NCBI GenBank assembly: GCA_025465355.1 | Contig: JAODNN010000142.1 | Location: 1-45,440, forward strand | Source: Blastococcus sp. | GTDB lineage: Bacteria; Actinomycetota; Actinomycetes; Mycobacteriales; Geodermatophilaceae | Reading direction: 5' to 3' | Length of the DNA stretch: 45,440 bases | In this document: positions 8,870 through 26,975 of the stretch, piece after piece | How the letters are laid out: the number at the start of each line of letters is the position of its first letter | Numbering within the stretch: the first letter of the stretch is position 1 | The notes under the pieces: model-generated | Seen by the model: only the letters and a program-made list of their open reading frames with translations | The model's database searches: none | What the model was told of the DNA's origin: nothing | Translations under genes and position numbers: made by a program

Positions 8870-10146
8870 CCGCGGTCCAGCGCCGTCGGCTCCGCACACG
8901 GCTCCAGTGCCACGCCGAGCAGGGCGTCCACGGCATCACACACCATGCGCGGCGCCTCGTCCTCCAGATCGGCGTCGTCCCCCGCCAGGCTCTGCTGTGC
9001 CCAGGCATCCACCAGCGCGATCGCGCCCGGCGTGTCGAGGTCGTCGGCGAGTCGCTCGCGCAGTCCGAGCAGCACTGCCGCGGCGGGTGCGCCGGCGTCC
9101 AGCGCGACCGCCCTCCGCCAGGTGGCCAGCCGCTCTTCCGCGGTCGAGAGCAGGTCCGCCGTCCAGAAGCGGTCGGTGCGGTAGTGCCCGGAGAGCAGCG
9201 CCAGGCGGATCGCCATCGGGTCCACACCGTCGCCGCGCAGGCGCGAGACGAAGACCAGGTTGCCCTTGCTCTTGCTCATCTTCTCGCCGTCGAGACCGAT
9301 CATCGCCGTGTGCACGTAGGCCCGGGCAAAGGGCTTGGTGGCGGTCAGTGCCTCGGCATGGACGGCGGAGTACTCGTGGTGCGGGAACACCAGATCGCTG
9401 CCGCCGCCCTGCACGTCGAAGCCCATGCCGATCGTGTCCAGCGCGATCGTCGCGCACTCGATGTGCCAGCCAGGCCGGCCGGCGACACCCTGCGGACCAG
9501 GCCACGACGGCTCGCCGGGGCGCTCGCCACGCCACAGCAGCGGGTCGAGCCGGTTGCGTTTGCCCGGACGGTCGGGGTCACCGCCACGCTCGGCGAACAG
9601 CCGGAGCATGGTCGCCTCGTCGTAGCCGGACTCCCCACCGAACCCGGGTGCCTGCGCCACGTCGTGGTAGACGTCGCCGGACCCGTCGTCGAGGACGTAG
9701 GCCAGGCCTTCCTCGAGCAGCGTCTCGATCCGCACCACGATCCGCGGGATCGACTCGACCGCGCCCACGAAGTTCTCGGGCGGCAGGATCCCCAACGCCG
9801 TCATGTCCTCGCGGAAGAGCGCGGTCTCGCGCATGGCGAGGACGATCCAGTCCTCGCCGTCCCGCTCGGCACGCTCGAGCAGGGGATCATCGATGTCGGT
9901 CACGTTCTGCACGTAGTGGACGGCGTGCCCTGCGTCGCGCCACATCCGGTTGATCAGGTCGAACGCAAGAAAGGTCGCGGCGTGACCGAGGTGCGTGGCG
10001 TCGTAGGGCGTGATGCCGCAGACGTACATCCGCGCCGTCCGGTCCGGCGTGGTGGCGACCACCTCTCCCCGGGCGGTGTCGTGGAGCTTGAGTACGGGAC
10101 CGGACCCCGGCAGGGTCGGCAGCAATGGAGCAGGCCAGGCGAGCAC
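8866..10146 (-). CDS. mshC: L-cysteine:1D-myo-inosityl 2-amino-2-deoxy-alpha-D-glucopyranoside ligase
   Basis: 426 residues. It joins cysteine to GlcN-Ins with ATP in the third step of mycothiol synthesis, using a cysteinyl-tRNA-synthetase-like fold. The start MLAWP, zinc-ligand-type C43 (YVCGITPYD), class I HIGH-like HLGH (52-55), WHIECATIA and the KMSKS motif ([10 protein letters not shown], near 290) are all present. It lacks the tRNA-binding C-terminal domain of true CysS, as expected of MshC. It overlaps dgt by ATGA and diverges from a mycothiol-dependent-enzyme homologue at 10,260. Confidence 0.95.
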
Positions 10147-10170
10147 AGCACGAGCCTAGATCGGGGTCCT

Positions 10171-10189
10171 GACGCCGCTCCGCGGCGTC
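10171..10189. promoter_or_regulatory. Inverted repeat in the mshC / isomerase divergent region
   Basis: GACGCCGC and GCGGCGTC form a perfect 8-bp stem with a 3-nt loop, 25 bp upstream of mshC and 71 bp upstream of the divergent gene. It could be an operator for either gene or a leader hairpin of the mshC transcript. Confidence 0.4.
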
Positions 10190-10259
10190 CGCCGGGGTGT
10201 GTTCCGTCCGGCAGGTCACCTACCGTCCTGGGGCAGGGTCCGCCGACAGAGGATGAGCG

Positions 10260-10976
10260 ATGGAGCGCGAGGGGTACCTGGAGGTTCTGCGACGGACCGA
10301 CGCCCGGTTCGCCGAGGCCGCCGCACAGGCGGTCCTGGCGCGCGGCTGGTCCGCGCCGGTGCCCGGCTGTCCCGGATGGACCCTCGCCGATCTCGTCTGG
10401 CACCTGGCGGAGGTGCAGCACTTCTGGGCGTGGGTCGTGCGCACCCGCGCGCAGGACCCGTCCGGTTACGTGGAACCGGAACGCCGCCCGAACGACGAAC
10501 TGCTGGCCTGGCAGGTCGTCCAGAGCGTCGAACTGGAGACGGCGCTGACCCGAGCGGATCCCGCCGAGCGGGTGTGGACGTGGGCTCCTCAGAAGGATGT
10601 CGCGTTCGTGCTGCGCCGGCAGGTCCATGAGGTGGTCGTGCACACCGTCGACGTGGAGCAGGTGCTCGACGACTTCCGCCCGGTGCCGACAGATGTCGGC
10701 CTCGACGGGCTCGACGAGTGGCTCGAGGTGTGGGTCCCCCGCACGCTGCCGAACGGGCCGCCGGAGAACGCCGAGCCGGTGGCCTTCCACGCCGTGGACG
10801 CCCACGCCGAGCGCATGCTCTTCGCCGGGTCCAAGCCGTTTCCCATCGCCACGGTGACCGGCATCGCCGGAGACCTGATGTTGGAGGTCTGGCGACGGGT
10901 GCCGTACGAGGTGTTGACGGTGGACGGTGACCCGGTCCAGGCCACCGCGATGATCGAACTGGTGGAACTCGAGTAG
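10260..10976 (+). CDS. Maleylpyruvate isomerase family mycothiol-dependent enzyme homologue
   Basis: 238 residues, DinB-like four-helix N-terminal domain followed by an MDMPI C-terminal domain. Recognisable blocks are WSAPVPGCPGWTLADLVWHLAEVQHFWAW and RRQVHEVVVHTVDVEQ. The conserved histidines (WHLAE, and HEVVVHTVD) are those that bind divalent metal in mycothiol-dependent maleylpyruvate isomerase. The family uses mycothiol as cofactor in isomerisation or thiol transfer; most members have no known substrate. Its place beside mshC fits a mycothiol link but is not proof. The ATG has GAGGATGAGCG upstream as a weak RBS. Confidence 0.75.
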   Translation: MEREGYLEVLRRTDARFAEAAAQAVLARGWSAPVPGCPGWTLADLVWHLAEVQHFWAWVVRTRAQDPSGYVEPERRPNDELLAWQVVQSVELETALTRADPAERVWTWAPQKDVAFVLRRQVHEVVVHTVDVEQVLDDFRPVPTDVGLDGLDEWLEVWVPRTLPNGPPENAEPVAFHAVDAHAERMLFAGSKPFPIATVTGIAGDLMLEVWRRVPYEVLTVDGDPVQATAMIELVELE

Positions 10977-11027
10977 CGGGTCAGGCTGACAATTCGCGAT
11001 CACGGGCGACGTGTGGACCGGAGCAGG

Positions 11028-11438
11028 TCACCACGTGAGGTAGGACATGGCGGCCAGCAAGCGGCGGCGCTCGAAGTCGTTACCGCGAACGATTATCCGG
11101 TCGGCGATGCACTCGATGGCCGCGGTCGTCTCCTGGTAGTAGATGTGCTGCATCGTCTCGGCGAGCAGCACGCAGAGGATCCGCGGACGTTCGGGCAGAC
11201 CGACGGCCACTGACTGCACCAGACCGTTGTCGATGAGGACCGTGAAGTCCATCTGCACGTCCGGCATCCGGACGACGAGCGGCCAGTCCTTCCACCTCGA
11301 CACCGCCGCGACGGTGTCCTTGTTCAGGTTCCACCTGTGCATGTAGAAGTCCTCGAGGATGTCCCGGAGGTATGGCCCGGTCGCCGTCTCCGGACGAGGG
11401 ATGAAGTGACTGCCTGTCGGATCCTGGACCTGCGGCAT
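11028..11438 (-). CDS. Small SCP2-like (sterol-carrier fold) protein
   Basis: 136 residues. The C-terminal half (FTVLIDNGLVQSVAVG... TTAAIECIADRIIVRGNDFERRRLL) follows the strand-helix pattern and IxVRGD-like end of SCP2-type lipid-binding domains; I rate this match moderate. No signal peptide or membrane segment is present. The start ATG 11438 is well supported by GGGAGAGAG directly upstream. It lies 79 bp after the MFS gene on the same strand and is probably the last gene of the catabolic operon. It might bind a hydrophobic pathway intermediate; this is inference. Confidence 0.5.
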   Translation of the reverse strand: MPQVQDPTGSHFIPRPETATGPYLRDILEDFYMHRWNLNKDTVAAVSRWKDWPLVVRMPDVQMDFTVLIDNGLVQSVAVGLPERPRILCVLLAETMQHIYYQETTAAIECIADRIIVRGNDFERRRLLAAMSYLTW

Positions 11439-11517
11439 CTCTCTCCCTAGTCGTGGCGACGCGCGTGCTTCGAGTGGGTATTGCGAGTTCGAGCCGGACG
11501 GGCGGTCTCCCGGCGAG

Positions 11518-12705
11518 TCAGGTCGCCGCTTTCGGGACCCGCCGGATGAGACGGAGTGCGGCCGCGCAGAAGGCCACGGCTATGCACGCGGCCGCGGTCA
11601 GATAGACGACGAGGTAACTACTCAGCGCGGCCAGAGCACCCAGCCCCAGACCGCCGAACGCGATACCCAGGTCGAACGTCAGATTCCACACCGAGGAGGC
11701 GAGCGCCCCCTCGCCGGCGCTCGCCTGTGCCATGACCGCGACCAGTGAGGCGGTGGCCAGTCCGCCGATTCCCGTCCCGGCCATCAGCGACGCCAGCATG
11801 AGCCCCCAGCCCGTGATCCAGGCCGTGAGGAGGACTCCCAGCAGGCTGAGTCCCAGCAGGGGCACCGCGAGCAGGTCCGGACGAACGGCGTCAGCGATCG
11901 GCCCGCAGAAGAATCGTGCAGCTGCGAAGCCTGCCCCGAACAAGAGCAGTGCGCCCGGGGCATCGGCCGAGGAAAGCGGAAGGAAGCTGTAGACGCCGCC
12001 ATATGCCACGGCGCACGGCAGGAAGAGCAGCGAAGGCTTCATCAGGCGACCGTCCCGCCATACCCCCGACAGGCCGCGGCTTCCCGCCTCGACCGTCGCC
12101 ATCGGTCCCGGCGAGGCACGACGCACGATGCCGAGGCTCCACAGCGTTCCCAGCGGGACGAGCAGAGCCACCAGGTACACAACGGTGCCCCGTCCGGCCT
12201 CCAGCATCACGAGACCAAGAGGCGGCGCCACCACTCCGGTGAACGACGTGGCAAGCCCATAGATCCCGAGGGCGCTGCCTCGCCGGCCACGCGGGGTGTA
12301 GGCGGACACCAGCGCCACGCCGACAACCGTCAGAATCCCGAACCCCGCGCCCCGGACAGCTGTCGCCAGGAGTACGGGCCACAGCCCGCCAGTCCAGCTG
12401 TAGACCGGCGCCGGGAGCGCCAGGAGGAGAAGGCTCCCCATGACGAGCAGGTGTGGTCGGACCCGCATTGCGATCCGCGGGAGCCAGAATTGGACAAGGA
12501 CCGTCGTCCCCATGAACACCGCTGTGGACAGTCCGGCACCGAATCGTCCCCCGTGGCCGGCAGCAAGCACCGGGACCACCGCGAACAACAGATAGAGGCT
12601 GCCGAACCCGGCTGCGCTCAGTATGAGCACGGCCAGGTTCGGCGAAATGGCGCCGGAGCGGGCGGCCGTCACCGTAGCCGCCCCCGTCGAGCCAGCAGCC
12701 GGCAA
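11518..12705 (-). CDS. MFS transporter
   Basis: 395 residues with about 10-12 hydrophobic segments spread over the whole length and short basic loops (RGRRGSALGIYGLATS between mid segments). This is the pattern of a major facilitator. It probably exports or imports a small organic molecule by proton coupling; the substrate is unknown. The first codon here is TTG 12705; GTG 12672 is an alternative start that removes 11 residues. It follows the SDR stop by 12 bp in the same operon, so it may move a pathway substrate or product. It would be a second transporter beside the ABC system. Confidence 0.85.
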   Translation of the reverse strand: MPAAGSTGAATVTAARSGAISPNLAVLILSAAGFGSLYLLFAVVPVLAAGHGGRFGAGLSTAVFMGTTVLVQFWLPRIAMRVRPHLLVMGSLLLLALPAPVYSWTGGLWPVLLATAVRGAGFGILTVVGVALVSAYTPRGRRGSALGIYGLATSFTGVVAPPLGLVMLEAGRGTVVYLVALLVPLGTLWSLGIVRRASPGPMATVEAGSRGLSGVWRDGRLMKPSLLFLPCAVAYGGVYSFLPLSSADAPGALLLFGAGFAAARFFCGPIADAVRPDLLAVPLLGLSLLGVLLTAWITGWGLMLASLMAGTGIGGLATASLVAVMAQASAGEGALASSVWNLTFDLGIAFGGLGLGALAALSSYLVVYLTAAACIAVAFCAAALRLIRRVPKAAT

Positions 12706-12717
12706 GGGGCCGCCTGT

Positions 12718-13476
12718 CTAGGCGACACCACGGCCGCCATCGACGGGGATGTTGGTGCCCGTGATCCACGAGGATGATGGCGACAACAGAAGGGCGACGA
12801 GGTGCGCCACATCGGCCGGTTCGCCGACCCGTCCCAGCGGGAATCGGTCTCGCCACTCGCTCAGCAGATCCTCGTACGCGCTGGGACTCATCCCCGCCGC
12901 GATGTAGATGCCACTGCGCACCATCGATGGCGAGACCACATTGACCCGTATTCCACTGGGCGCCAGCTCGTGTGCCAACGTCCGGGACAACGCCTCCACG
13001 GCGCCCTTGGTCCCGGTGTACACCGCAGTGCCCGGCCAGGTCCGTTGCGTCAGCAGCGAACTCACGTTGACGATTGAGCCGCCCTGGACGCGCAGGAAGG
13101 GTTCCGCCGACCGACAGGTGTACAGCGTCCCGAAGACATTCACCTCGAACTGGAGGCGTATCTGCTCCTCGGTCACCTGGGCCAGCGACGCCTCGACCAG
13201 CGCGCCGGCGCAGTTGACAAGGCCGTCGAGGCGGCCGAAGTGCTCAGCGACGTCCCGCACCATCGCGTCGACGGCAGCTGGGTCGCGGACGTCGCACGCG
13301 TACGGCCGGATGCCGGGAAGTTCGGCCACGCCCGGCCCCGTGGCTCCGCTGCGCGAGACCGCTGCGACCCGGAATCCGCCGGCGACCAGCGCCTCGACTA
13401 TTCCGAGACCGATCCCGGACGATGCCCCGGTGACGACAGCGACTGGACCGTCTGCACTCCCGGTCGCCGTTGTCAC
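12718..13476 (-). CDS. SDR-family oxidoreductase
   Basis: 252 residues, classical short-chain dehydrogenase. TGASSGIG at about 17-24 binds NAD(P); NCAGA, the catalytic Ser (NVSSLL), YTGTK and the C-terminal ITGTNIPVDGG are all present, so it should be active. It probably oxidises or reduces an alcohol or carbonyl intermediate of the adjoining pathway. GTG 13476 overlaps the RidA stop as GTGA, giving translational coupling and showing that the frame open further upstream is not used. It is followed 12 bp later by the MFS gene. Confidence 0.9.
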   Translation of the reverse strand: MTTATGSADGPVAVVTGASSGIGLGIVEALVAGGFRVAAVSRSGATGPGVAELPGIRPYACDVRDPAAVDAMVRDVAEHFGRLDGLVNCAGALVEASLAQVTEEQIRLQFEVNVFGTLYTCRSAEPFLRVQGGSIVNVSSLLTQRTWPGTAVYTGTKGAVEALSRTLAHELAPSGIRVNVVSPSMVRSGIYIAAGMSPSAYEDLLSEWRDRFPLGRVGEPADVAHLVALLLSPSSSWITGTNIPVDGGRGVA

Positions 13477-13910
13477 ACCTCGTCCACGCTTGCTGAGGTT
13501 CCTCGCACCGCTATCGCCTCGATCTCCACCCGCATGCCGGGAATCGCCAGCGCGGACACTTCGACGAGTGTGCTGGCGGGTCGAGCCGACCCGAAGTACT
13601 CGCGACGCACGTCGTTGATGACTGCCCGTTCGGACATCTCGGTGACATATACGATCACCTTGGTGATCTGCGTGAAGTCGCTGCCTGTTGCATCGAGAAT
13701 GAGCTTCAGGTTTTCGTGGACCTGCCGCGCCTGCGCCTCGATGTCGTCGCTGACCAGGCGGCCCGATGAGTCGACGGGTGCACATCCTGAGATGAACACC
13801 AACGGTCCGGCCACTACAGCATCCGTGTAGTGACTGATCGGCTCGGCCAGACCGGGTACCCGGAATTCTTCCCGTGTCCAGTGCTCCACACTTGTCACGT
13901 CATCATCCAT
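13473..13910 (-). CDS. RidA/YjgF-family enamine/imine deaminase
   Basis: 145 residues, trimeric RidA fold. The family's key arginine is present in the GSARPASTLVEV block and the terminal IEAIAV strand is conserved, so it belongs to the catalytic type that hydrolyses enamines/imines to ketones and ammonia. It has a longer N-terminus than housekeeping RidA (about 130 residues). It lies 3 bp after the alpha/beta hydrolase and is coupled to the SDR by GTGA. Such placement suggests a dedicated pathway step, as in 2-aminomuconate-type deaminases, rather than general damage control; this is inference. Confidence 0.88.
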   Translation of the reverse strand: MDDDVTSVEHWTREEFRVPGLAEPISHYTDAVVAGPLVFISGCAPVDSSGRLVSDDIEAQARQVHENLKLILDATGSDFTQITKVIVYVTEMSERAVINDVRREYFGSARPASTLVEVSALAIPGMRVEIEAIAVRGTSASVDEV

Positions 13911-13913
13911 TCG

Positions 13914-14723
13914 TCAGAGATTGCTCGACGCGATGAGGAATTCCTCGATCGCTGCATTCAGCTGTTCCGGTCGCTCGAGCCAGAGGAAGTGGCCAGCACG
14001 GGGGATCTCGCGAAGGACAGCGCCCGGGATCAGTTCCGCGATAGTGCGGTTGTACCAAGGAAGGGTGATCAGGTCCTCTTCCCCGTACACCACCAGGACG
14101 GGACACCTTATCTGTGATAGTTCGTCCCGGGTCTCATGTCCGAGATCCGCTTCGAAATGGCGGGTGTAGGCATGCACCGGTTGCGCCGACGAGTGGGCCG
14201 CGAATACTTCCTGGACGCGGGCGACCACCTCCGGCTCGTGATCCACGATCGATGGGGCGAACATCCAGAAGCTGAACGCCTGGAACACTTCCCGAGGTGC
14301 CTCCTCGAGTGCCCGCTTCCTCGCTTCGAACCACTTGCGGATGTGATGTTCACGGCGGCTGGACGACCATGTGGAGACCAAGCAAGCGGTGCGGACTCGT
14401 TCCGGCTGGGTGATGGCCAACCGCTGTATCACCGCCGCGCCAAGGCTGAAGCCGGCGAAGTGTGCGGACCGGAGTCCCAGATGGTCCATGAGGCCTGAGA
14501 CGTCACGGCTGAACATGTCGACGCTGTACGGCTCATCGGGCGCCGAACTGGCCCCCGTGCCCCGGAGGTCGAAGGTGACGCATCTGAAGGACTTCCGGAA
14601 GCACTCGACTTGATGCTCCCAGACGCCTCCCCCCACACCGGTTCCCCCGACGAACACGAAGGGTTCGCCGTCGCCATCGATCTCGTAGGAGATCGACACA
14701 CCGTTGATATGCGCGATCGGCAC
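13914..14723 (-). CDS. Alpha/beta hydrolase (enol-lactonase / amide hydrolase type)
   Basis: 269 residues. The nucleophile elbow is GFSLGAA (Ser near 97), the acid is in VVYGEEDLI and the His in RAGHFLWLE, a complete catalytic triad. The oxyanion region GGTGVGGGVW differs from the usual HG. The closest groups by pattern are 3-oxoadipate enol-lactonase and the hydrolases that act after pyridine-ring opening (N-formylmaleamate deformylase, AAMS hydrolase). GTG 14723 has GGGGA about 8 nt upstream and follows the monooxygenase stop by 10 bp. Its coupling with a ring-opening-type monooxygenase suggests it splits that enzyme's acyclic product. Confidence 0.88.
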   Translation of the reverse strand: MPIAHINGVSISYEIDGDGEPFVFVGGTGVGGGVWEHQVECFRKSFRCVTFDLRGTGASSAPDEPYSVDMFSRDVSGLMDHLGLRSAHFAGFSLGAAVIQRLAITQPERVRTACLVSTWSSSRREHHIRKWFEARKRALEEAPREVFQAFSFWMFAPSIVDHEPEVVARVQEVFAAHSSAQPVHAYTRHFEADLGHETRDELSQIRCPVLVVYGEEDLITLPWYNRTIAELIPGAVLREIPRAGHFLWLERPEQLNAAIEEFLIASSNL

Positions 14724-14733
14724 CGGGGGTCCC

Positions 14734-15861
14734 CTATGCCCCGTACGGCGTGTGCCGCGCGGCTCGGTTGAACTGGTTCTGCACCCACGGGAGCGCCGTC
14801 GCGAACTGCAGGAACCTGGTCCGCTGGGGTGACAGGTTCTCGGGCCAGTGGCCGACGATCTTCCCGTAGAGCTGGGACCAACGCTGGACATGGTCGGTGA
14901 GGGGTCGCTCGACGGCTTCCCAGGAGCGCAGAGCACCCGGGATGTCCTGTGCCGAGTCGACCGCGGCCGCGAGAGACACGACGTTCGTGAACGTCATGTT
15001 GGCGGCCTGGCCGAGGTTCGGCGGCTGGCCGTGGGCCGCGTCACCGATCACGACGGCTCTCCCGGAAGACCAACGTCGGCACGTGACGTTGACCGCCCGA
15101 TCCCAGCGCCCCTCCTCCGGAAAGCGCTCGATGATCGCCTCGTGCTCCGGGAAACTTTCCAGCCACGTCGCCTTGTCCACAGGGACGCGGCGCGCGCGGA
15201 CGTCATCGACGGAACAGGCGAGACAGATGTAGTTGAAATCGTCAGTGCACGGGCAGTACAGGAGGCGGCGACTGCCGTTCCAGTACTCGCTGATGACGCT
15301 GTCGGAGTAGTCCGGCAGACGTGGGATCAGGAGCCGGATGTAGCCCTCCCACAGGTAGTCGACCTTCTTCGTCAGGAAGAGGGACTCACGCAGCTTCGAG
15401 TAGGCGCCGTCGGCTGCCACGACCAGGTCGGCTCGCAGCGTTGTTCCGTCCTCGAGAATCACTTCCCCGTCCGGCGTCGCCGAACGGACAGGCGAGTCCG
15501 TGACGATCTCCGCCCCGTACTTCGTGGCGCCGGCGATGAGTGCGTCGTAGAGGTCGGCCCGAGGCGGGAGCAGCATCCGGTCCCCGTCCGCGAAAGGCCG
15601 CTCCATCATCGCCTGTCCGTCCTGGTCACGGATGTCGAACGCGGAGATGGACTTTGCTCGCGCCATTGCCTGATCTGCGACGCCGAGGACCCCGAGCGAC
15701 TTGAGGCCGTTCTCCCAGATCCAGATCCCGGCGCCGAACATCCGGAGCTCCGATGCCCGTTCGTGCACCCGGACCGTCCACCCCCGCTGCCCGAGGGCTG
15801 TTGCCATGGCCAGGCCGGCCAACCCGCCGCCGACGATCTCCGCGTGCCTTGCTTTCGCCAT
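14734..15861 (-). CDS. FAD-dependent monooxygenase, MHPCO-like (possible pyridine-ring-opening)
   Basis: 375 residues, class A flavoprotein monooxygenase. FAD dinucleotide loop GGGLAGL (about 10-16), the DG motif VAADGAYSKLRE and the GD motif VVIGDAAHGQPPNLGQ are all present. From memory, the N-terminal block (AEIVGGGLAGL, GWTVRVHERASELR, FGAGIWIWENGL) and LLYCPC closely follow 2-methyl-3-hydroxypyridine-5-carboxylate oxygenase (MHPCO), whose active-site Tyr lies in the equivalent ILYSPC. That enzyme hydroxylates and opens the pyridine ring. Other candidates are 6-hydroxynicotinate- or salicylate-type hydroxylases. ATG 15861 has AAGGA 5 nt upstream. No transmembrane or signal sequence is seen. 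The alpha/beta hydrolase follows at once. Confidence 0.85.
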   Translation of the reverse strand: MAKARHAEIVGGGLAGLAMATALGQRGWTVRVHERASELRMFGAGIWIWENGLKSLGVLGVADQAMARAKSISAFDIRDQDGQAMMERPFADGDRMLLPPRADLYDALIAGATKYGAEIVTDSPVRSATPDGEVILEDGTTLRADLVVAADGAYSKLRESLFLTKKVDYLWEGYIRLLIPRLPDYSDSVISEYWNGSRRLLYCPCTDDFNYICLACSVDDVRARRVPVDKATWLESFPEHEAIIERFPEEGRWDRAVNVTCRRWSSGRAVVIGDAAHGQPPNLGQAANMTFTNVVSLAAAVDSAQDIPGALRSWEAVERPLTDHVQRWSQLYGKIVGHWPENLSPQRTRFLQFATALPWVQNQFNRAARHTPYGA

Positions 15862-15936
15862 CAATTCCTTCTCTTCTCTCGACCGACGACACCTGTCGGC
15901 GTAGGCCCCTATTGGAGGGGAGGAATGGTTGGGGTG

Positions 15937-16962
15937 CTATTTCCGTCGAATCCGGTCCGCAACGACTGCCACGATCACGGTGAGACCCGTGACGAGCAAC
16001 TGAGCATTGGACGAGACGCTCAGCAGATTCATCGAATTGGAGAGCAGAGTGAGCAGCGCGACTCCGTAGAAGGCGTGGCGCGCTCGCCCGCTGCCGCCTG
16101 TCAGCGCGATACCGCCGATGATGACCGCCGCAATGGCCTGGAGTTCCAGGCCCGTTCCCGCGGTCGGCTGCGCCGCCGCGACCCGCCCAGTCAGCAGCAG
16201 ACCCGCGAGACCTGCCAAGGTCCCCGATGCGACGTATGCCGCCGTGATGTATCGCCTGACCGGGACGCCGGCGTAAGTCGTCGCCGTGCGGTTGCCGCCC
16301 AAGGCGTACAGGTACTTCCCGAATCGTGTGTAGGCGAGGAGCGCAGCGACCAGCAGCAGCGTGATGAAGGCCAGCACGAAGGAGATGGGTACTCCGAGGA
16401 TCTTCTGGTAGCCGAGCGGATTGGTGAACGAGGTCGGCAGCCCGTAGACGGGGAGACCGCCGGTGACGGTCAGAGCCGTGCCGCTCGCCACGGACAACAT
16501 GCCCAGCGTCACGATGAACGGCGAGACGTCGAAGCGAGCGACCAATCCTCCGTTCACCACGCCGACGACCGCTCCGCACGCCAGCCCGGCGAGGACACCG
16601 AGCAGGACGCCGTGGTCGACCATGACCGTGGCGGCCACCACACCCGAGAGCGCCGCCACCGCGCCGATCGAAAGGTCGAGGCCACCAGAGATGATCGTGA
16701 TGGCCGCGGCGGAAGCCAGCACGGTCAGAACCGACATCTGCCGGAGGATGTTCTGCAGGTTGCTGATCCGCAGGAAACTCGGCTCGAGGAGCGCCGTGGC
16801 GACGAACAGCAGCAGGACCAGCAGGGGCAGCGCGAGGTCAGGGCTGAGCAGCAACTTCCGTACCCGAGCCAGCCGCGCTCCCCCACCTGGCTCGGGGCTC
16901 ATGACCTCGGGCCCGGCCCGCGTGGCGGAGTCGTCCACGTTCACGTGCGCCTGCATCTGCAC
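15937..16962 (-). CDS. ABC importer permease, RbsC/branched-chain-type
   Basis: About 341 residues. An N-terminal cytoplasmic stretch is followed by 8-10 hydrophobic segments with the sugar-type permease landmarks IISGGLDLSIGAVAALSG and ALGGNRTATTYAGV, and the cytoplasmic-loop pattern FITLGM-like (SPFIVTLGMLSVASGTAL). It should form the membrane channel for the adjoining ATPase and lipoprotein. Start is GTG 16962, 9 nt after GAGGAG, or ATG 16956; both lie 13-19 bp after the ATPase stop. The frame upstream overlaps the ATPase and is not used. The monooxygenase follows after 75 bp. Confidence 0.9.
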   Translation of the reverse strand: MQMQAHVNVDDSATRAGPEVMSPEPGGGARLARVRKLLLSPDLALPLLVLLLFVATALLEPSFLRISNLQNILRQMSVLTVLASAAAITIISGGLDLSIGAVAALSGVVAATVMVDHGVLLGVLAGLACGAVVGVVNGGLVARFDVSPFIVTLGMLSVASGTALTVTGGLPVYGLPTSFTNPLGYQKILGVPISFVLAFITLLLVAALLAYTRFGKYLYALGGNRTATTYAGVPVRRYITAAYVASGTLAGLAGLLLTGRVAAAQPTAGTGLELQAIAAVIIGGIALTGGSGRARHAFYGVALLTLLSNSMNLLSVSSNAQLLVTGLTVIVAVVADRIRRK

Positions 16963-16975
16963 CTGCACCAACTCC

Positions 16976-18523
16976 TCAGGACGTTGCCTCGTCGTCGAGC
17001 GTCGCCGTAGCGCTGAGCGCCGCCTCAAGCACGTTCTCTTCGTTCAGTGCGGTGCCGCTGAAGGTGGCGGCCAGGGTTCCCCGGTAGAGCACCACGGCCC
17101 TGTCCGCGAGCACGAGCAACTCGGCGAGATCGGCCGTCAGGAACACCACCGACATGCCCTGGCGAACGTTCTCCCGCAAGGCGTCGTAGATCTCGGCACG
17201 AGAACCGACGTCCACGCCGACAGTGGGGTCCTTGAGCACCAGCACCGGCGTTCGGCAGCCCAGCGCCCGGGCCAGGAGCGCCTTCTGCTGGTTACCGCCA
17301 CTCAGGGTCGTGATTCCAGAGCGCAGCGATCCGCCGCGGACCCGCATGCGGGTCGCCTCCCGCTCGGCGTAACCGCCGGTCACCTTCGGCCTGAGCCATC
17401 CCCAGCGAGTGAGACGGTGCAGATTGGACAGGCTGATGTTGTCCTGGATCGACAAGGTGGGCACGATGCCGGCGCGACCGCGCTCGCCAGGCAGGAAAGC
17501 GACCCCGTTTTTCAGGGCCGCGCTGACTCCCGCTCTGCTGCGGACCCGCCCCTGCACGAACACCTCGCCCGAATCCGGCCGCAACGCACCGGCAAGGACC
17601 TCGGCCAATTCGTTCACGCCGCACTGCCCGACGCCGTACACCCCGAGGATCTCGCCGCTGAGCGCCTCGAAACTGACGTCCCGTAACGCCCCGGGGACGC
17701 AGACGTCACGCAATTCGAGCAAGGGCGCGCCCGTCACCGAACCGAACTCGACGGGCTGCCGGCCCACCGATACTCGCCGTCCCACGATGTGCTCGACCAG
17801 TTGGTCTTCGGGAACGTCGGCACTGCACTCCGCCACGACGGCGCCGTCCCGCATGACCGTCACCAGGTCCCCGACCCGCGAGACCTCGTCCAGGTGGTGG
17901 GTGATGTACAGAACGGCTACGCCCTCGTCGCGTGCACGACGGATCACGTCGAACAGCAGGGACCGCTCCTGCTTGTTCAGTGCTGCCGTCGCCTCGTCGA
18001 AGATCAGCACTCGCGGCTTCCGGAACAGCGCCTTCGCGACGGCGACGAGATGGCGCTGAGAGCCCGTCAACTGTTCCACACGGACATCTGGGTCGATCCC
18101 GGGTGCCACCTTCGCAAGAAGCTCGATGGTCGCCGCTCGCATGCCTCGCCGGTCGAGGATCCCCAGCCTGGTGAATGCCTCCTCACTGCCGAGCGTGACG
18201 TTGTCCACCACGGTCATCTGCGGCACGACAGTGGTCTCCTGATGCACTACCTCGATCCGGGCCTGCCGCGCGTGGCCGGGCGAGTGGCCGGCGACAGCCT
18301 GCTGGTCCAGTTCGACCGTGCCCCGGTCGGGCGCCTGTATCCCGGCGAGCACCTTTCCCAGGGTGGATTTTCCCGCGCCGTTCTCGCCGAGCAGCACGTG
18401 CACCTCGCCGGCTCTGAGTTCGAGGTCGACGGCACGCAGTGCGACGGTGTTCCCGAACCGCTTGTGAACGCCCCGGAGAGCAGCGATGACCTGTGGCGCT
18501 GGGCCGGAGCCCTGCCCGTTCAC
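16976..18523 (-). CDS. ABC importer ATP-binding protein, double-domain RbsA/XylG type
   Basis: 515 residues with two ATPase halves. First half: Walker A GENGAGKST, signature LTGSQ, Walker B VLIFDEATAAL. Second half: a degenerate Walker A (GVYGVGQCGVN), an intact signature LSGGNQQK and an altered Walker B (VLVLKDPTVGVDVG, Lys-Asp where the family has Asp-Glu). RbsA proteins normally have a weak second Walker A; the altered Walker B suggests only one productive ATP site. Start is GTG 18523, overlapping the stop of a 10-codon mini-ORF as GTGA. It lies between the lipoprotein and permease genes. Confidence 0.92.
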   Translation of the reverse strand: MNGQGSGPAPQVIAALRGVHKRFGNTVALRAVDLELRAGEVHVLLGENGAGKSTLGKVLAGIQAPDRGTVELDQQAVAGHSPGHARQARIEVVHQETTVVPQMTVVDNVTLGSEEAFTRLGILDRRGMRAATIELLAKVAPGIDPDVRVEQLTGSQRHLVAVAKALFRKPRVLIFDEATAALNKQERSLLFDVIRRARDEGVAVLYITHHLDEVSRVGDLVTVMRDGAVVAECSADVPEDQLVEHIVGRRVSVGRQPVEFGSVTGAPLLELRDVCVPGALRDVSFEALSGEILGVYGVGQCGVNELAEVLAGALRPDSGEVFVQGRVRSRAGVSAALKNGVAFLPGERGRAGIVPTLSIQDNISLSNLHRLTRWGWLRPKVTGGYAEREATRMRVRGGSLRSGITTLSGGNQQKALLARALGCRTPVLVLKDPTVGVDVGSRAEIYDALRENVRQGMSVVFLTADLAELLVLADRAVVLYRGTLAATFSGTALNEENVLEAALSATATLDDEATS

Positions 18524-18552
18524 CGGGCCGCGAAGATGTCGTCGGATCGCAT
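18520..18552 (-). CDS. Ten-codon leader mini-ORF coupled to the ABC ATPase
   Basis: ATG 18552 begins MRSDDIFAAR-stop, preceded by a purine-rich GAGAGGGGGAACG ribosome site just after the lipoprotein stop. Its TGA overlaps the GTG start of the ATPase as GTGA. The ATPase itself has no obvious SD. The mini-ORF may serve to reinitiate ribosomes at the ATPase start. Whether the peptide has a function is unknown. Confidence 0.4.
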   Translation of the reverse strand: MRSDDIFAAR

Positions 18553-18563
18553 CGTTCCCCCTC

Positions 18564-19688
18564 TCAGGCGGGTGAGAAGCCCTTGGGAGCCCAGTCGAGG
18601 ATCATCGGGTCGAACTTGCCGACGGTCTCCGGCGTGATGGGGGGCAGCTCGACGTACAGAACCTTCTCGGGGTACTTCTCGTCGCCTTCGGCCGCCTTGG
18701 CGCCGGCCATTTCTTTGCCCTCGATCGCCCGGATCGCGTACTGGACGGCGAGTCGCCCGACGAGCTGACCCGGCTCGGCGTAGCAGAACTGGATTTCGCC
18801 CGCCGCGATCATGTCTTTGGCGGCACTGGAGAGGGATGAGGTGGCGACGAAGACCTTGCCCGCGCGCCCCGCATTGCGCAGTGCCAGGACCGCTCCTTCG
18901 GCAGTCAGACTGACGGCCGAGAAAACCGCATCGATGCTGTCGCCACGTTTCTGCAACCAGTCTTCCATCGTGGTCTGTCCGGCGGCGCGGTCCGGGTTGA
19001 GCCACGCCTGCTCGACGATCTCGATGCCCGGGTAGTTGGCCGCCAGTTCTTCCTTGAAGCCTCGGTCACGCAGGATGGCCCAGTCGGCACCGTTCGGGCC
19101 GTTGAGCATGACGACCTTTCCCTTTCCATTCAGGTGCTTGCCGATCGCGTCCGCCATGCGGTGGCCCGCTTCGATGTGCGAGAACGTGACACCGGCGCTC
19201 ATGGCGCCCGTACTGGCGAGGTTGCCGGCACCGATGACCTTGATGCCCGCCCGCTGAGCGTTATCGAGGGCCGGCGCGATCCCGACTCGGTCGACCGGAG
19301 CGACCAGGATGGCGTCCAGCCCGCGCTGCGTCATGTCATCGACCTGCGACAACTGCTTGCCGAGATCGGCGTACGAACCCGCCTCATTGCTGGAGACCAC
19401 CTCGAGACCGGCCTTCTTGGCCTCGTCCTCGATGCCGTAGGCGACAGAGACCCAGAACGGATCCCGGAACTGAGGGAGCGTGTAGCCGATCTGGTATTTC
19501 TTTTCGGCCGTGAGGCGAGGAAGAAGCCCGTTGAGTTCAACAGCGGCATTCCCGGAGGCGGCCGGTGAACTGTCGGTGGTTCCCGCGCTGCTGCCACTGC
19601 AGGCGGACACCGCCGTGGCGGCCATGAGAAGACCTGCCATAAATGTGACCGCCCGCCTGAGACGGTGAGGGCGCGAAGTGTGCATCAT
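18564..19688 (-). CDS. Sugar-type ABC substrate-binding lipoprotein
   Basis: 374 residues. N-terminal basic residues, a hydrophobic core (about 14-26) and a lipobox AVSAC place the lipidated cysteine at residue 30. After a Ser/Gly-rich linker comes a type 1 periplasmic-binding fold: YQIGYTLPQFRDPFWVSVAYGIEDEAKKAG, LDAILVAPVDRVGIAPAL, and GKVVMLNGPNGADW. It captures the ligand outside the membrane for the ribose-type importer. The ligand is unknown; such proteins also bind nucleosides, autoinducer-2 and non-sugar compounds. ATG 19688 has AAGGAG 10 nt upstream. It is the first gene of the tight operon, with 200 bp of non-coding sequence upstream. Confidence 0.92.
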   Translation of the reverse strand: MMHTSRPHRLRRAVTFMAGLLMAATAVSACSGSSAGTTDSSPAASGNAAVELNGLLPRLTAEKKYQIGYTLPQFRDPFWVSVAYGIEDEAKKAGLEVVSSNEAGSYADLGKQLSQVDDMTQRGLDAILVAPVDRVGIAPALDNAQRAGIKVIGAGNLASTGAMSAGVTFSHIEAGHRMADAIGKHLNGKGKVVMLNGPNGADWAILRDRGFKEELAANYPGIEIVEQAWLNPDRAAGQTTMEDWLQKRGDSIDAVFSAVSLTAEGAVLALRNAGRAGKVFVATSSLSSAAKDMIAAGEIQFCYAEPGQLVGRLAVQYAIRAIEGKEMAGAKAAEGDEKYPEKVLYVELPPITPETVGKFDPMILDWAPKGFSPA

Positions 19689-19888
19689 TGTGGGGCGTCT
19701 CCTTCATGACCGAGTCGCACCGATGCGGAATGCCTCGGTGCTCGATGTGCTCACGCCGATCCTTGCGTTCTGCGCTATGTGGTCGAATACCGGAATGAAC
19801 GGCCGCGGGGAGAAGCTGTTCGCGCGCAGCCTCCGCACGCGGTCCGAGCCGCCTACGCCGGTTGCGTTCCCACCCGACCTCTTCCCGC
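19689..19888. other. 200-bp non-coding gap, likely promoter region of the catabolic operon
   Basis: It separates the amidohydrolase stop from the lipoprotein start. It is less GC-rich than its surroundings near 19,760-19,800. I see the AAGGAG site of the lipoprotein gene but no clear -35/-10 pair or dyad. Confidence 0.35.
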
Positions 19889-21340
19889 TCAGTCGATGTG
19901 CCGGGCGCCCGTCTCGCGGTGCGACAGGGCAGACACCAGGTCGTTGGCCTCTTCCGAGGTCCGGAGGTCGTGCACCTGGACGCCGTCGGACTCCGCGGCG
20001 CTCACCGGGTCAGCCGGGTCGAGGCCGCCGTACACAACGTCGTAGGTCAGGTCACCGACGGAGTAGCCGATTCCCCGTTCGTGCGGCCAGGACCGGGCCA
20101 CCTTCTCTTCGTCGAACACGACGACGGCCCCGCCTTGGATGACCGTCTCTATGCATTCGCGGCGCTGCAGCACACGGATGTCCTTCACCGGATCACCGTT
20201 GACGATGATCAGATCGGCGATCATTCCGGGAGCCACGACGCCGACCTTGCCGTCGAGGCCCAACATGAGGGCACCGTTGCTGGTACCGGCCTGGATCGCT
20301 TCCACCGAGGTCAGCCCGGCGTAGTCCATCAGCAGTTCCAGCTCGCGCGCATGCCACACCCCGTAGGGCGTCAGCGAGAAGCCGCTGTCGGTCCCGAGGG
20401 CGAATTTCACCCCGGCCTGGCGCGCCCGCGTCATCGCGTCGCCGGTCCGGTCGAGCATCCGCTTCATGCCCTCGCGCAGCGGCTCGGGTGCTCCCACCAA
20501 GTGTCCGAAGTCGCCGGCGTTCGAGAGCAGAAGGAGTGTCGGTACCAGCGGCGTCCCCGACTCCGCCAGCCGTCCGATGGTGCCGTCGTCCATGATGTTG
20601 CCGTGCATGATCCAGTCGATGCCGGCACGGACGGCGGCATCGACCTCGGCTGATCCCCTCGCGTGGATCGTCACCTTCTTGCCGAGCTGGTGCGCGAGGT
20701 CGGCCACGATCTTCATCTCGTCGTCGGTGAACGACTGGTACTGGCCGAACGGGCTGTCGGCGAGCTTGATGAGGTCGACACCGTTCTTCACCTGGTGCCG
20801 GACCTCGTTGATCATGCCGTCCACGTTGTTGTGCAGGACGCCGATCGAGCCCTCCGGGACCCCTACGGAATCGGGGAACCAGTCGGTGAGGCCGTTGCTG
20901 GTGGTGATGTACCGGCCGGCCGCAGTCATCCGCGGCCCCTGCACGATGCCGTCCTTGATGGCCTCCCGCAGGCCGACACCGATGTAGTAGCTGCCCCCGG
21001 GCTGCGAGATGCCGGTGACGCCCGCGCGCAGCACCTTCTGCGCGTTGAAGGCGGCCTTCAGCGTCCGAAGTTCCGGGCTGGTGTAGAGGTCGATCTCCTC
21101 CTCGCTGCGGCTCTCCCCGTAGGTCATGTGGCAGTGCGCATCGATGAGGCCGGGCATGAGCGTCTTGCCCGTCGCGTCGATCTCGGTGAGCTCCTCGCCC
21201 CGCGGGACGAGGCTGCGACCGACGTGCGGCCCCACGTCGGAGATCAGCTCGTCCTTGACGAGGACTGACGCGCCGGACACGGGCGGATTCCCCGCGCCAT
21301 CCACGATTGTCGCGTTCGTGATCAGCAGCCAGGACGGCAT
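19889..21340 (-). CDS. Metal-dependent amidohydrolase (imidazolonepropionase/prolidase-like)
   Basis: 483 residues, amidohydrolase-superfamily barrel. Metal ligands are complete: HxH in DAHCHMTYG, a candidate carboxylated Lys in GVDLIKLADS, His in VTIHARGS, His in IMHGNIM and Asp in LGTDSGFS. The composite beta-sandwich is formed by N- and C-terminal segments (MIADLIIVNGDP). It hydrolyses an amide, lactam or similar bond; substrates in this group include Xaa-Pro-type dipeptides and cyclic amides. About 65 residues (ARSWPHERGIGYS... to the end) extend beyond the usual terminus. ATG 21340 has AGAGGAAG upstream. It lies 100 bp after the regulator gene. Confidence 0.88.
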   Translation of the reverse strand: MPSWLLITNATIVDGAGNPPVSGASVLVKDELISDVGPHVGRSLVPRGEELTEIDATGKTLMPGLIDAHCHMTYGESRSEEEIDLYTSPELRTLKAAFNAQKVLRAGVTGISQPGGSYYIGVGLREAIKDGIVQGPRMTAAGRYITTSNGLTDWFPDSVGVPEGSIGVLHNNVDGMINEVRHQVKNGVDLIKLADSPFGQYQSFTDDEMKIVADLAHQLGKKVTIHARGSAEVDAAVRAGIDWIMHGNIMDDGTIGRLAESGTPLVPTLLLLSNAGDFGHLVGAPEPLREGMKRMLDRTGDAMTRARQAGVKFALGTDSGFSLTPYGVWHARELELLMDYAGLTSVEAIQAGTSNGALMLGLDGKVGVVAPGMIADLIIVNGDPVKDIRVLQRRECIETVIQGGAVVVFDEEKVARSWPHERGIGYSVGDLTYDVVYGGLDPADPVSAAESDGVQVHDLRTSEEANDLVSALSHRETGARHID

Positions 21341-21439
21341 CGGCTTCCTCTTCTGCGCTTCTCGGCGGGGATCCCAGCGAGCGGGACCGATGGTGGAGAA
21401 GTCTGGAGAGGGTGCCGTGAAGGAAGGCGAAATCTCCCG

Positions 21440-24400
21440 CTAGTGGCGGAAATCCCGGAGCAGTGCGGCGGTGGCACCCGACGGCTGGGCGCCGATTTCA
21501 CGCAGGGCCTCCTCGCAGCGCCGGTACGCGGCGATGACGCGGTCGTGATCCCCCAGCGCCGCGGCCAGCCGCATGAGCAGGCGCCAGGCGGCCTCCCGGT
21601 ACGGATCGGTCGCGACCACCTGCTCTGCCAGTCGGCGCGCCTCCCCGAGCTGTCCGATGGTGCACGCCACCTCGGCCGCCTCCAGCCGGGCGCTGCGCAC
21701 CAGTTCGTCAAGGCGCTGGCGCCGGTCCTCGGCCCAGACGGACGCCACGGTCGGCAGGTACGGACCACGGTCGGCAATGTCGAGCGCCGCCACCAGCAGC
21801 CGCAACCGTTCCTCGCCCCGCACGGAGGTGGCTTCGCCGAGGAGGCCGATGAGGCGTCGGGACTCGGTGGCGACTCGCGCGGAGGGGCTCAACCGCAGAG
21901 TGCCTGGCCGGGAGGTGGGATCCAGCACATCCGGCACAGCCTTACGAAGCTTGAGGGATGCCTGCCGGAGGTAGGCCGTCGTCGAGGTGTCTCGGCGGCC
22001 CTCGAAGAGCGCATCCAGCAGCCGCTGGCGCGAGACTTCCTCGCGCTCGGCATTCGCCAGGTACGCCAACAGTTCGACGCTCTTGCTCAGCCCCGGGTTC
22101 ACCTCGGAGCCGTCGATCGTGAGCGCCGTTCGCCCGAACTCGACGACCTCGACCGTCGCTGATCCCACTTCCGGGCCCTGAACACCCCGTACCAACAGCG
22201 CTCGGCCGAGCTGGTGCCACTCGGAGTCGGCCCCGGGCTCGAGGTCGATGCGCCGGGCCAGCACGTCGGGGAACTCGGTGAGCACGGACAGCAGCATGTG
22301 TTCCGACCCTTGACGCCGGGCGGCCACGCGTGCGGTCTCCGCGGCGACATCGGCCGCCTCCTCGCGCCCGCACCGCCACTCTGCTTCCGAGAGGTACACC
22401 GCCGCGACGGGCAGGTGCAGCAGTCGTTCACCGCGCTGCATGCTCTCAACGGCCCGACGCAGGTGCGCCGCGGCGGCTCTGGGAGCCCCGGAATAGAGCT
22501 CAGCCAGACCGGCGAGCATGTCGCGTTGCTCGACGAGGAAGGCGTACCGGCTCCCGACGGGGTGGGCAGCCAGGCGTTCGAGCACGGTGTGCGCCGCTGC
22601 GGGATCCTTGTGCAGACGCAGCTCGAACTCTGCCTCGATCAGCAGGCTGTACGTCTCGAACATCACCGATCCGGTGGCCTGGATGCGACGGCGGCCCTCG
22701 TGCAGAAGGCGCCAGGCCTCCGCGTGGTCTCCCACCTCCAGCATCAGGCGGGGCCCGAGCAGCCCCAGCAGCCAGACGCTCTGGTCGGAACTGTTCACGA
22801 GCCGGTGGTACAGCTCGAAGGCCCGCTCCGTGTGCCCGGTCGTCAGCAGCGCGCTCACCATCCAGGACTCTGCCGCCTTCGCCGCCCAGGGAGACTGCGG
22901 TACTGCGGTGAGCAGCCCCAGTCGCCCGAAGTCGAAGTGCGCGCGCAGCACGAGCGCGTCCATCGGTCCCCCACTGAGGGCACCCAGGGAGGACGGGGCG
23001 ATGTCCGCTGGCTCGTCGCGCACGACCGCCATGGCATAGCGCACCGCGTCGAGGTCAGGCCCCTGCGGCGCGACGTCCAGGACACGGTCGATGTCCTCCA
23101 CGCGGCCCGCATGCAGGTAACACCACGCCATGAACCCCGCAGCCCGTGCCGACGACCCCGCCAGTTCCTGTCGTTGGCCCGACTTCTCGAGCCGATCGGC
23201 CAAGGCGATGCCGGCGCCGAAGTCCTCCCGGACGACCGCGAGCATGAGTTCTGCGGCAGCGAGAGAGATGTCCTCCTCGCCCCGGACAGGTGCGAGCGTC
23301 TCGAGCCACCTCTCGGCCAGGCCGAAATCGGTGCGCTCGATCAGCCGCTCCACCACCGGGTGGATGATCGCGAGCGCCTCGGCCAGAAGGCCGGCACCGA
23401 GGTACTCCTGCACCGCCTCCTCGTCGTGGTGCTCCTGCGACAGCAAGCGGGCGTGCGCACGGTGGAGTTCCCGCTGCTCGTGCTCAGGTCGCCGAGCAAG
23501 CCGCTTGAGGAGGAACTCGCGGAACCGCGGATGGCAGAGCATCACGGTTGCCGAACGGCTCCAGCTGACAGGTAACCGGTGGCGGGACAGGGAGTGCATC
23601 CGAGCGAAGGAATGGGCCACGCCCAGCGCCTGCGCGTGGGCTGCGGTGACCTCTGTCAGGACGGAGGTGCTGATCAGGAATTCGGCGTCCGCCTCGCTGA
23701 GTTGCCCGAGGATCTCCGTCGACAGGTACCCGTGGAGCGGATCGGCTTCACCGCCGAGCCCGAGGACGTGGTCGGGCGCCCGCCAGGCCTCGAACAGGAC
23801 CCCGGTCATCCAGCCGCCGGTCTCGACGATCGCGTCGACCGGGTCTATGTCGGCACGGCCACTGGCGGCCAGTGCGGCGCTGGCCTCCTCGACGGTGAGG
23901 GCCAGATCCTCCTCCCCGATCGCGGCCACCCACGGCGAGGCGCCCACGCTCGAGCGAAAAGGCAGCTCCACGCGGCTGGCGATGATGAGCCGGGCCGAAG
24001 GTGGAAGGTAGCGGGCGAACGCGCCCAGTACGTCCACCGCCTCAGGATCGCCGGCCAGGCGCTCTGCGTCGTCGAGCACAACCAGCAGTTGCCGGTCCCC
24101 TACCGACTCGGCGAGCAGCCCGGCGACCTCGGCGTGCGGAAGCTGGGCAGCCAGAGCGGCCGCCGCGACGCCGGTCACCTGGGGGACGTGGAGAGCCAGG
24201 GCGGCCTCCAGGTACACCAGCAGTCGGCCCGTGGACACGTCGGTGGCATCGAGGTCCAACCAGGCCAGCGGTCGCTGGAGGCGCTGGGCAGCCTGCAGGA
24301 TCGCGGTCGTCTTTCCCGCACCCGCGGAGGCGTACACGCACACCAGTCGGTGCTGGTCCAGCAGTCCGTTGAGCAGGGTCTCCAGTCTGAGCCGCGGAAC

Positions 24401-24544: not shown

Positions 24545-24724
24545 CCCCGCTCCCGTCCGAGGCCGGGACCGTCGTCATGTGCCTCGGCCCCGCGTGCGCC
24601 GACGTGCCCGGGTGGCGGCAGTATGCCCTTACCACATTGCGGAAAGGGGACGTGCCACCCGGTGGCGTAGGCACGGATCACGGTGGCCCGGCACGGCCAG
24701 AACGACGCAGTCGCGGTAAGCGCG

Positions 24725-25594: not shown

Positions 25595-25672
25595 CGCGGG
25601 AGTCTCCTCGCCTCGGCGTGAAGAATTCCGAAACCGGGTTTCCTCAGCCGGCGGATCGGACTCTGTTCGCGC

Positions 25673-26071: not shown

Positions 26072-26194
26072 GGTCAGCGCACAAGGCGGGTCCTGTCGAG
26101 CGGGGGGCCGGAGGCCTCCCCGGGGCAGGACGGGCAACGGCTGAGCGGCACAGGGGAACGGCTCCTGGCCGCGGTGGCGTCCGGTGGACGACGA

Positions 26195-26956: not shown

Positions 26957-26975
26957 GAGCAGGACCAGCCGCGGC

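Follow-up and report, generated by a model that had tools for sequence, protein, structure and literature searches.

A probable catabolic island in Blastococcus sp. carrying a putative kpi-type hydroxypyridine gene set

Introduction

The kpi gene cluster of Arthrobacter sp. IN13 is responsible for the degradation of 4-hydroxypyridine and encodes a flavin monooxygenase, an alpha/beta hydrolase, an amidohydrolase and an FAH-family hydrolase (PMC7356986). Here, we compare it with a run of about twelve minus-strand genes at positions 11028–25594 of a 45,440-nucleotide stretch of DNA from Blastococcus sp. (NCBI GenBank assembly GCA_025465355.1, contig JAODNN010000142.1, positions 1 to 45,440 of the forward strand; hereafter the window). 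In the kpi paper, KpiA (PF01494, 374 amino acids [aa]) converts 4-hydroxypyridine to 3,4-dihydroxypyridine in the host Rhodococcus erythropolis SQ1, as seen by NMR, and is placed nearest to a 4-quinolone 3-hydroxylase. KpiC (PF01979, 475 aa, 52.1 kDa; GenBank MT469879) causes a gain of 32 Da on 3,4-dihydroxypyridine, which was read as extradiol opening, and the alpha/beta hydrolase KpiB (PF00561, 295 aa) together with KpiC yields a product read as 3-formylpyruvate. The FAH protein KpiD (PF01557, 288 aa) was proposed for the last step, and a functional protein was not obtained. The ring opener of this route is the amidohydrolase-family KpiC, called a novel dioxygenase, and not the flavoprotein; the route is known from one strain, and the hydrolysis of formiminopyruvate was left open (PMC7356986).

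MHPCO, an enzyme of vitamin B6 degradation, is the closest solved structure to the flavin monooxygenase of the window (PDB 3all and others). According to the reports cited here, MHPCO Tyr82 is important, with Tyr223, for substrate deprotonation (PMC6180312). KnmB1 of karnamicin biosynthesis, 45% identical to MHPCO and compared here by description, is likewise an MHPCO-like flavoprotein, yet this biosynthetic enzyme hydroxylates pyridine (PMC9838390); sequence likeness to MHPCO is therefore no proof of ring opening. The pyd genes of Rhizobium TAL1145 act on 3-hydroxy-4-pyridone (mimosine), and the intermediates proposed for them are the same as those proposed below (PMC3637104, PMC7356986). RidA and RutC require a conserved Arg for enamine deaminase activity (PMC8113886, PMC4433059), and approximately 10% of RidA proteins carry Ser at this position (PMC4433059). 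By title, no catabolic cluster combining a pyridine-ring flavin monooxygenase with RidA was found in the literature; among papers from 2020 on hydroxypyridine, amidohydrolase, dioxygenase and RidA, the gene set was absent from titles and abstract starts, PMC7356986 excepted. Among the listed papers that contain the word KpiC, PMC7356986 alone concerns this subject.

Results

The island is a real, inserted catabolic unit, very probably for a substrate with an N-heteroaromatic ring, and we lean towards a kpi-type hydroxypyridine pathway in which the amidohydrolase would open the ring. Four of its proteins belong to the same Pfam families as KpiA, KpiB, KpiC and KpiD and are of comparable size: an FAD monooxygenase (FMO; 14734–15864, 376 aa, PF01494 E 7.7e-22), an alpha/beta hydrolase (13914–14729, 271 aa, PF00561 E 5e-26), an amidohydrolase (AMH; 19889–21340, 483 aa, 51.4 kDa, PF01979 E 1.7e-36) and an FAH-family hydrolase (24725–25594, 289 aa, PF01557 E 2.3e-60). 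They are proposed as a KpiA-like ring 3-hydroxylase, a KpiB-like deformylase, a KpiC-like ring-opening candidate and a KpiD-like enzyme of formylpyruvate cleavage, respectively. The FMO frame starts at 15864, and the next codon, ATG, gives 15861. Gene order differs between the two clusters: KpiB and KpiC stand side by side in Table 1 of PMC7356986, whereas their counterparts in the window are not adjacent. The window adds a Rid-family protein, a short-chain dehydrogenase (SDR), an MFS transporter and a 136-aa protein, and it has an Rbs/TorT-type ABC importer and the MFS transporter where kpi has the KpiP permease; the term RidA does not occur in the kpi paper.

A preliminary description of this DNA had placed an eight-gene, same-strand operon for N-heteroaromatic catabolism at 11028–19688. 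The genes are real and on one strand, and the N-heteroaromatic assignment gains support from the MHPCO-like FMO and from partners conserved elsewhere; however, there are nine genes rather than eight, and the run continues through AMH, a BTAD regulator and the FAH gene to 25594. All of the family assignments guessed at that time agree with the Pfam and NCBIfam results. The combination had been thought unlike any described pathway, whereas FMO, hydrolase, amidohydrolase and FAH together make up the kpi set, which had been overlooked since AMH and the FAH gene fall outside 11028–19688. The Rid protein, SDR and ribose-type importer do remain additions relative to kpi. The compact spacing holds, with no gap above 79 bp, and the overlaps number two: from high to low coordinate, the gaps within 11028–19688 are 40, −53, 72, 4, 3, −10, 12 and 79 bp, the −53 overlap depending on the longest permease start. 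Further upstream, gaps of 200, 99 and 180 bp lead to the amidohydrolase, the BTAD regulator and the FAH gene, respectively, with the strand unchanged throughout.

The island is bordered on the left by an MDMPI-domain gene (10260–10976) and on the right by a glyoxalase-like gene (25673–26137). The left backbone consists of the MDMPI-domain gene and a tRNA-synt_1e gene, which we take to be MshC-like; on the right, the glyoxalase-like gene is accompanied by a presumably SCO1664-like gene, a DUF3090 gene and a histidine phosphatase gene. DUF3090 has matches in 55 of 57 family genomes, and nine sites were compared. The same chromosomal site is empty in all nine relatives read (eight of the same genus, including G759, and one of the same family), where the MDMPI and glyoxalase genes are 9–1014 bp apart (tblastn ends) with no island-gene match between them at E ≤ 1e-6. 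Therefore, 11028–25594 is an insertion of approximately 14.6 kb. Its G+C content is 0.676, versus 0.707 and 0.714 in adjoining DNA, and horizontal gain of a catabolic unit is the best explanation. At the right end of the window, two open reading frames (44270–45417) read like a transposase pair, presumably of the IS3 type. No riboswitch was matched at the Rfam gathering score across 10000–27000.

Two contigs of Blastococcus metagenome-assembled genomes (MAGs), L001 and L002, keep the genes and their order at 73–94% protein identity, and the gene run is therefore more than chance. L001 covers the importer ATPase to the 136-aa protein and L002 covers the FMO to the 136-aa protein; both have the same chromosomal edge as the window, the MshC-like and HD genes coming next in each, and the MDMPI gene is intact in L001, while only a fragment aligns in L002.

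AMH is 56–69% identical to proteins in seven other loci from six genomes or records: the plasmid of R. rhodochrous BX2 (L068), G034 (L023), G787 (L086), G782 (L088), G845 (L093) and two copies in G808 (L089 and L091). L001 and L002 were left out of this count, since both contigs begin within the importer or beyond it. In all seven, the quartet of AMH, alpha/beta hydrolase, Rid and FAH proteins is encoded inside 3546–5177 bp, and the hydrolase directly adjoins AMH in six, BX2 being the exception. For two more distant amidohydrolases, those of R. ruber (32%) and Novosphingobium THN1 (37%), neither Rid nor FAH was matched at E ≤ 1e-5 within 8–10 kb. The FAH proteins are 57% (BX2), 49% (G787) and 37–39% (G034, G808, G782 and G845) identical to that of the window, the best PDB match of which is the "Putative HpcE protein" 6v77 (E 8.1e-93). 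The BX2 locus is flanked by transposase genes on both sides. AMH itself is rare: it was found in two of 394 class genomes at 1e-110 (own genome included), at 1e-90 in five of the 118 genomes of the genus to which G034 belongs (counting G034 itself; one of the five has two copies), in none of 138 genomes of another genus and not in the one genome of a single-genome family. Among 72,556 plasmid records, two matched at E ≤ 1e-60, one at 67% identity, and 283 at 1e-20, of which one exceeded 60% identity among the matches listed; the R. ruber and Novosphingobium loci are two of the weaker ones.

The genes around this quartet vary. The oxygenase is an MHPCO-like FMO 54% identical to that of the window in G034, an HpaB-type enzyme in BX2 (NCBIfam HpaB-2, 673 bits, under the cut-off of 885) and a 3HB6H/HpxO-type FMO in G787 and G808 (for G808, the scan covered one copy of two), while G782 and G845 have a LigB gene in the module (PF02900 E 1.2e-40 for G782). 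The importers are of the Rbs type in the window and G034, the NMT1 type in G787 and the branched-chain amino-acid type in the second copy of G808 and in G845. Near the quartet of the other AMH loci, there are no counterparts of the SDR, MFS transporter, 136-aa protein or BTAD regulator; the regulator has no match there at E ≤ 1e-5, and the one SDR match (27%) is remote from the quartet, in L092, a region next to L091. Directly behind the AMH module, G782 and G845 carry a gene for a Mg-chelatase-like AAA protein and one for a 659-aa protein (L088:8063–11436 and L093:11982–15355).

The amidohydrolases of the eight loci are 474–489 aa long (51.1–53.1 kDa), with 476–477 aa for those of BX2 and G845, and all keep the metal ligands HxH, K, H, H and D, which we take to be the canonical amidohydrolase set. 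With these ligands intact, the metal site bears no dioxygenase mark. The best PDB matches of AMH are 9kov ("trum-mut") and an Xaa-Pro dipeptidase, and its PDB relatives are peptidases, ochratoxinase and phenylurea hydrolase. The TTGGHAD motif of the two best matches is TSNGLTDW in the AMH clade, and HAHG of 2qs8 is HARG; by alignment, these changes say that the substrate of AMH would differ from theirs, and they do not tell its reaction. An AlphaFold model of AMH alone was unusable (pLDDT 36.6). The retained ligands and these PDB relatives fit a true amidase that frees a (hetero)aromatic amine or acid from an amide conjugate, leaving the oxygenase, hydrolase, Rid and FAH proteins to degrade the ring in an aminophenol- or paracetamol-like manner, and 2-aminomuconate deaminase of the aminophenol pathway is indeed a Rid protein (PMC6742747). 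We consider this quite unlikely, given that the island family scans contain no benzenoid ring-cleaving dioxygenase, that AMH is without TTGGHAD, that the Rid protein is without the Arg present in RutC and in a Variovorax Rid, and that two sister loci carry the LigB type described next.

In G782 and G845, two of the six other module-bearing genomes or records, the module includes a LigB gene of the DDHFENH type. With 96% identity between them, the two proteins count as a single piece of evidence. The six further LigB relatives of these genomes or records are without the DDHFENH and WICG motifs of PydA; in a control locus, L004, the WICG string occurs in some reading frame and DDHFENH is missing. 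The presence of this LigB type in two sister loci points to 3-hydroxy-4-pyridone, as in the pyd system; in contrast to these loci, the genome of the window (G000, 95.35% complete) has no LigB relative at E ≤ 1e-10.

The FMO indeed resembles MHPCO, as the preliminary description had noted, since MHPCO entries take the first five places among its PDB matches (E 1.4e-59 to 1.1e-58). The suggested kinship with the nicotinate pair NicC and NicD did not hold: NicC matches the FMO at E 1.1e-15, and the hydrolase is esterase- or PcaD-like by PDB and NCBIfam, with esterases and 3-oxoadipate enol-lactonase as its closest structures and no NicD among the best 60 of 298 PDB matches. A tree of 27 rows, with two HpxO/3HB6H-type FMOs as outgroup, separated these two from the MHPCO-like clade with 100/100 support, and a salicylate- or HpxO-type affiliation was rejected on this ground. 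The partners of the FMO also recur elsewhere, and the preliminary description thus withstood the refuting check that it had set itself. Within the clade, one group holds the FMOs of the window, L001, L002 and G034 (95/90), a second holds eight FMOs from TorT-type clusters and that of L069 (100/99), and a third, marked open, holds MHPCO with the FMOs beside aqdC1 (L007) and meqE (L008) (92/98). That the clade includes both MHPCO and FMOs linked to quinolone dioxygenases was counted in favour of the kpi-type pathway.

All 24 FMOs of the clade that were aligned with MHPCO carry Arg181 and Tyr223 (MHPCO numbering), and both outgroup FMOs carry Arg181 as well. Arg211, the Arg before LLY in the window FMO, is kept in 22 of the 24 and is Phe in L007 and L008. 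The Tyr of LLYCPC, which had been marked for checking, corresponds to MHPCO Tyr214 and not to Tyr223, and Tyr223 is retained in the FNY motif of the window. Tyr82 and Tyr54 of MHPCO are Phe and Trp in the window FMO. We assume that Arg211 of MHPCO contacts the substrate carboxylate; its role was not found among the literature matches listed, and a carboxylated substrate is therefore a guess.

These residues bear on whether the FMO itself opens the ring of a 3-hydroxypyridine carboxylate in the manner of MHPCO, with AMH, hydrolase, Rid and FAH processing the acyclic amide or enamine. Such a reaction would fit the PDB similarity, the retention of Arg181, Arg211 and Tyr223 with Phe at position 211 in both quinolone-linked FMOs, and the island family scans, in which no classical-family ring-cleaving dioxygenase was identified; in G782 and G845, moreover, the AMH set stands with a LigB ring opener, as would be expected of a lower pathway. 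Against this, the window FMO falls outside the group of MHPCO and has Phe for Tyr82 and Trp for Tyr54, while Arg181 and Tyr223 occur throughout the clade and are thus not diagnostic. Furthermore, the AMH set also occurs with HpaB-type or HpxO/3HB6H-type hydroxylases (BX2, G787 and G808), types not known to us to include ring openers. That the FMO opens the ring, as first supposed, is not favoured, and we regard it as unlikely.

FMO relatives were found in 10 of 200 order genomes at E ≤ 1e-40, in three of 394 class genomes at 1e-75 and in seven of 397 order genomes at 1e-84; these counts include the genome of the window, and the genome sets overlap. Seven other genomes of the genus gave no FMO match at 1e-84, nor did two of them at 1e-40.

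The Rid-family protein (13473–13910, PF01042 E 2.9e-30) had been taken for a RidA deaminase, and Ser replaces its catalytic Arg. The Arg (column of RutC Arg104; Arg105 of RidA) is missing from the Rid proteins of all eight loci: the column holds Ser in the window, L001, L002, BX2 and G787, and Asn, inside an extended loop, in G034, G782, G845 and both G808 copies. It is kept in E. coli RutC and in a Variovorax Rid that adjoins a 3-hydroxyanthranilate dioxygenase gene. The window protein thus shares with RutC and RidA the fold family and the setting in a catabolic operon, and not this residue. The consistent loss of Arg in two sequence types beside the same partners suggests a dedicated function of these Rid proteins, the substrate of which, as a guess, may be the enamine or imine left after deformylation. 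At 1e-15, 12 plasmid records matched the Rid protein, BX2 at 57% and the others at 35–42% identity; the stretch around the Rid gene of Arthrobacter D5-1 has an amidohydrolase gene, and the annotation within 6 kb of it shows neither an alpha/beta hydrolase nor an FAH protein.

A non-pyridine N-heterocycle, such as pyrrole, pyrimidine or 4-quinolone, is very unlikely as the substrate. FMO relatives do adjoin quinolone dioxygenase genes, and the hydrolase and Rid proteins match the RutD and RutC models, though below the cut-offs; however, the ten island proteins scanned gave no family match to RutA, RutB or a dioxygenase of the AqdC/MeqE type, and position 211 of the FMO is Arg, in contrast to Phe in the two quinolone-linked FMOs. 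A Rut-type pathway was rejected on the absence of RutA and RutB from these family matches and on the Arg-less Rid.

The remaining genes encode transport, regulation and accessory functions. The ABC importer comprises a TorT/RbsB-like substrate-binding protein (18564–19688, PF13407 E 2.6e-52; best NCBIfam match TorT PRK10936, 120 bits, under the cut-off of 200), an ATPase of the AraG/RbsA type by family matches (16976–18523) and an RbsC-type permease (15937–17028, PF02653 E 6e-36; the coordinates are those of the longest reading frame, and the true start may be further in). A large ATPase/BTAD transcriptional regulator of 1034 aa (21440–24544, PF03704 E 3.6e-10) lies between AMH and the FAH gene. 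The SDR (12718–13482, PF13561 E 1e-61) and the MFS transporter (11518–12705, PF07690 E 2.2e-20) are followed by the 136-aa protein (11028–11438), which matches nothing in Pfam or NCBIfam at E ≤ 0.001, is 73–74% identical in L001 and L002 and is the last in the operon there too. An AlphaFold prediction of this protein from three sequences, its own and the two relatives, was unusable (pLDDT 42.0).

The partnership of an MHPCO-like FMO with an amidohydrolase recurs with different amidohydrolase subfamilies. An amidohydrolase-family gene is present at 14 of 22 MHPCO-like FMO loci, the 24 clade loci excluding L001 and L002, as these two contigs stop short. At two of the 14 (the window and L023) it is AMH, 3–4 kb from the FMO; at the other 12, a relative of the amidohydrolase of L003 is encoded no more than about 1.3 kb away (L003, L006, L025–L031, L033, L036 and L069), and PF07969 was the best family of both such proteins scanned (L003 and L006). 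With the L003 protein, no match was obtained at 1e-20 in L004, L005, L007, L008, L009, L032, L034 and L035; in L004, a different amidohydrolase gene is annotated at a distance of 9 kb. L003, L006, L025–L029 and L036, including R. pyridinivorans and Arthrobacter plasmids, combine a separate FMO clade with the other amidohydrolase subfamily, and a TorT-like binding protein with importer is also found at L003, L006 and L025–L029, where the sequence suffices. The genome of the window holds a second MHPCO-like FMO (36–38% identity) immediately followed by an amidohydrolase 29.7% identical to the L003 protein (L033:10170–12787, G000:C33). L004, on a plasmid of Variovorax SRS16, has an MHPCO-like FMO near dioxygenase, Rid and 3-hydroxyanthranilate dioxygenase genes.

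Discussion

Gene content, the conservation of four enzymes, the insertion and the aligned active-site residues are observed, and from these we infer the reactions and the substrate. By analogy with kpi, the best explanation of the substrate is a 4-pyridone-type hydroxypyridine, that is, 4-hydroxypyridine or a substituted, perhaps carboxylated, relative. The Rbs/TorT-type importer would take up the hydroxypyridine, and the FMO would add a ring hydroxyl to give a 3,4-dihydroxypyridine. AMH, as a putative KpiC-type extradiol dioxygenase, would open the ring to a product of the N-formyl-formiminopyruvate type, from which the alpha/beta hydrolase would remove the formyl group. The Rid protein may help to hydrolyse the resulting enamine or imine, and the FAH protein would cleave the formylpyruvate-type product to pyruvate and formate; the SDR, MFS transporter and 136-aa protein are presumably accessory.

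Several observations weigh against this pathway. The orthology of AMH and KpiC is drawn from fold, size and gene company, KpiA and KpiC being compared by description, and, judged from the metal site, AMH still resembles a hydrolase. In PMC7356986, the dioxygenase activity of KpiC was shown with cell extract, and its product was not purified. In the window, AMH lies 4 kb from the FMO and does not adjoin the hydrolase gene, and the hydrolase is weakly similar (21–29% identity) to those of the seven other loci. The importer type is unlike KpiP and varies between loci, and the BTAD regulator belongs to a family other than those of KpiR1 and KpiR2 (FadR and AraC types). In G782 and G845, a PydA-like LigB adjoins AMH, and AMH may not be the ring opener there.

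More tentatively, the quartet may be a mobile dihydroxypyridine ring-opening cassette of actinobacteria, in which AMH would be an oxygenolytic dioxygenase, the second hydrolase fold of this kind after NicX, fed by several hydroxylases, and the Arg-less Rid lineages would act outside the classical RidA mechanism. Seven further loci, from six other genomes or records, bear the quartet and provide homologues for testing oxygenolytic cleavage by an amidohydrolase fold, and the Arg-less Rid falls near the step, formiminopyruvate hydrolysis, that the kpi paper left open. Interchangeable oxygenases around a fixed quartet suggest how a catabolic cassette may be re-targeted, which matters for predicting pyridine-degrading soil actinobacteria.

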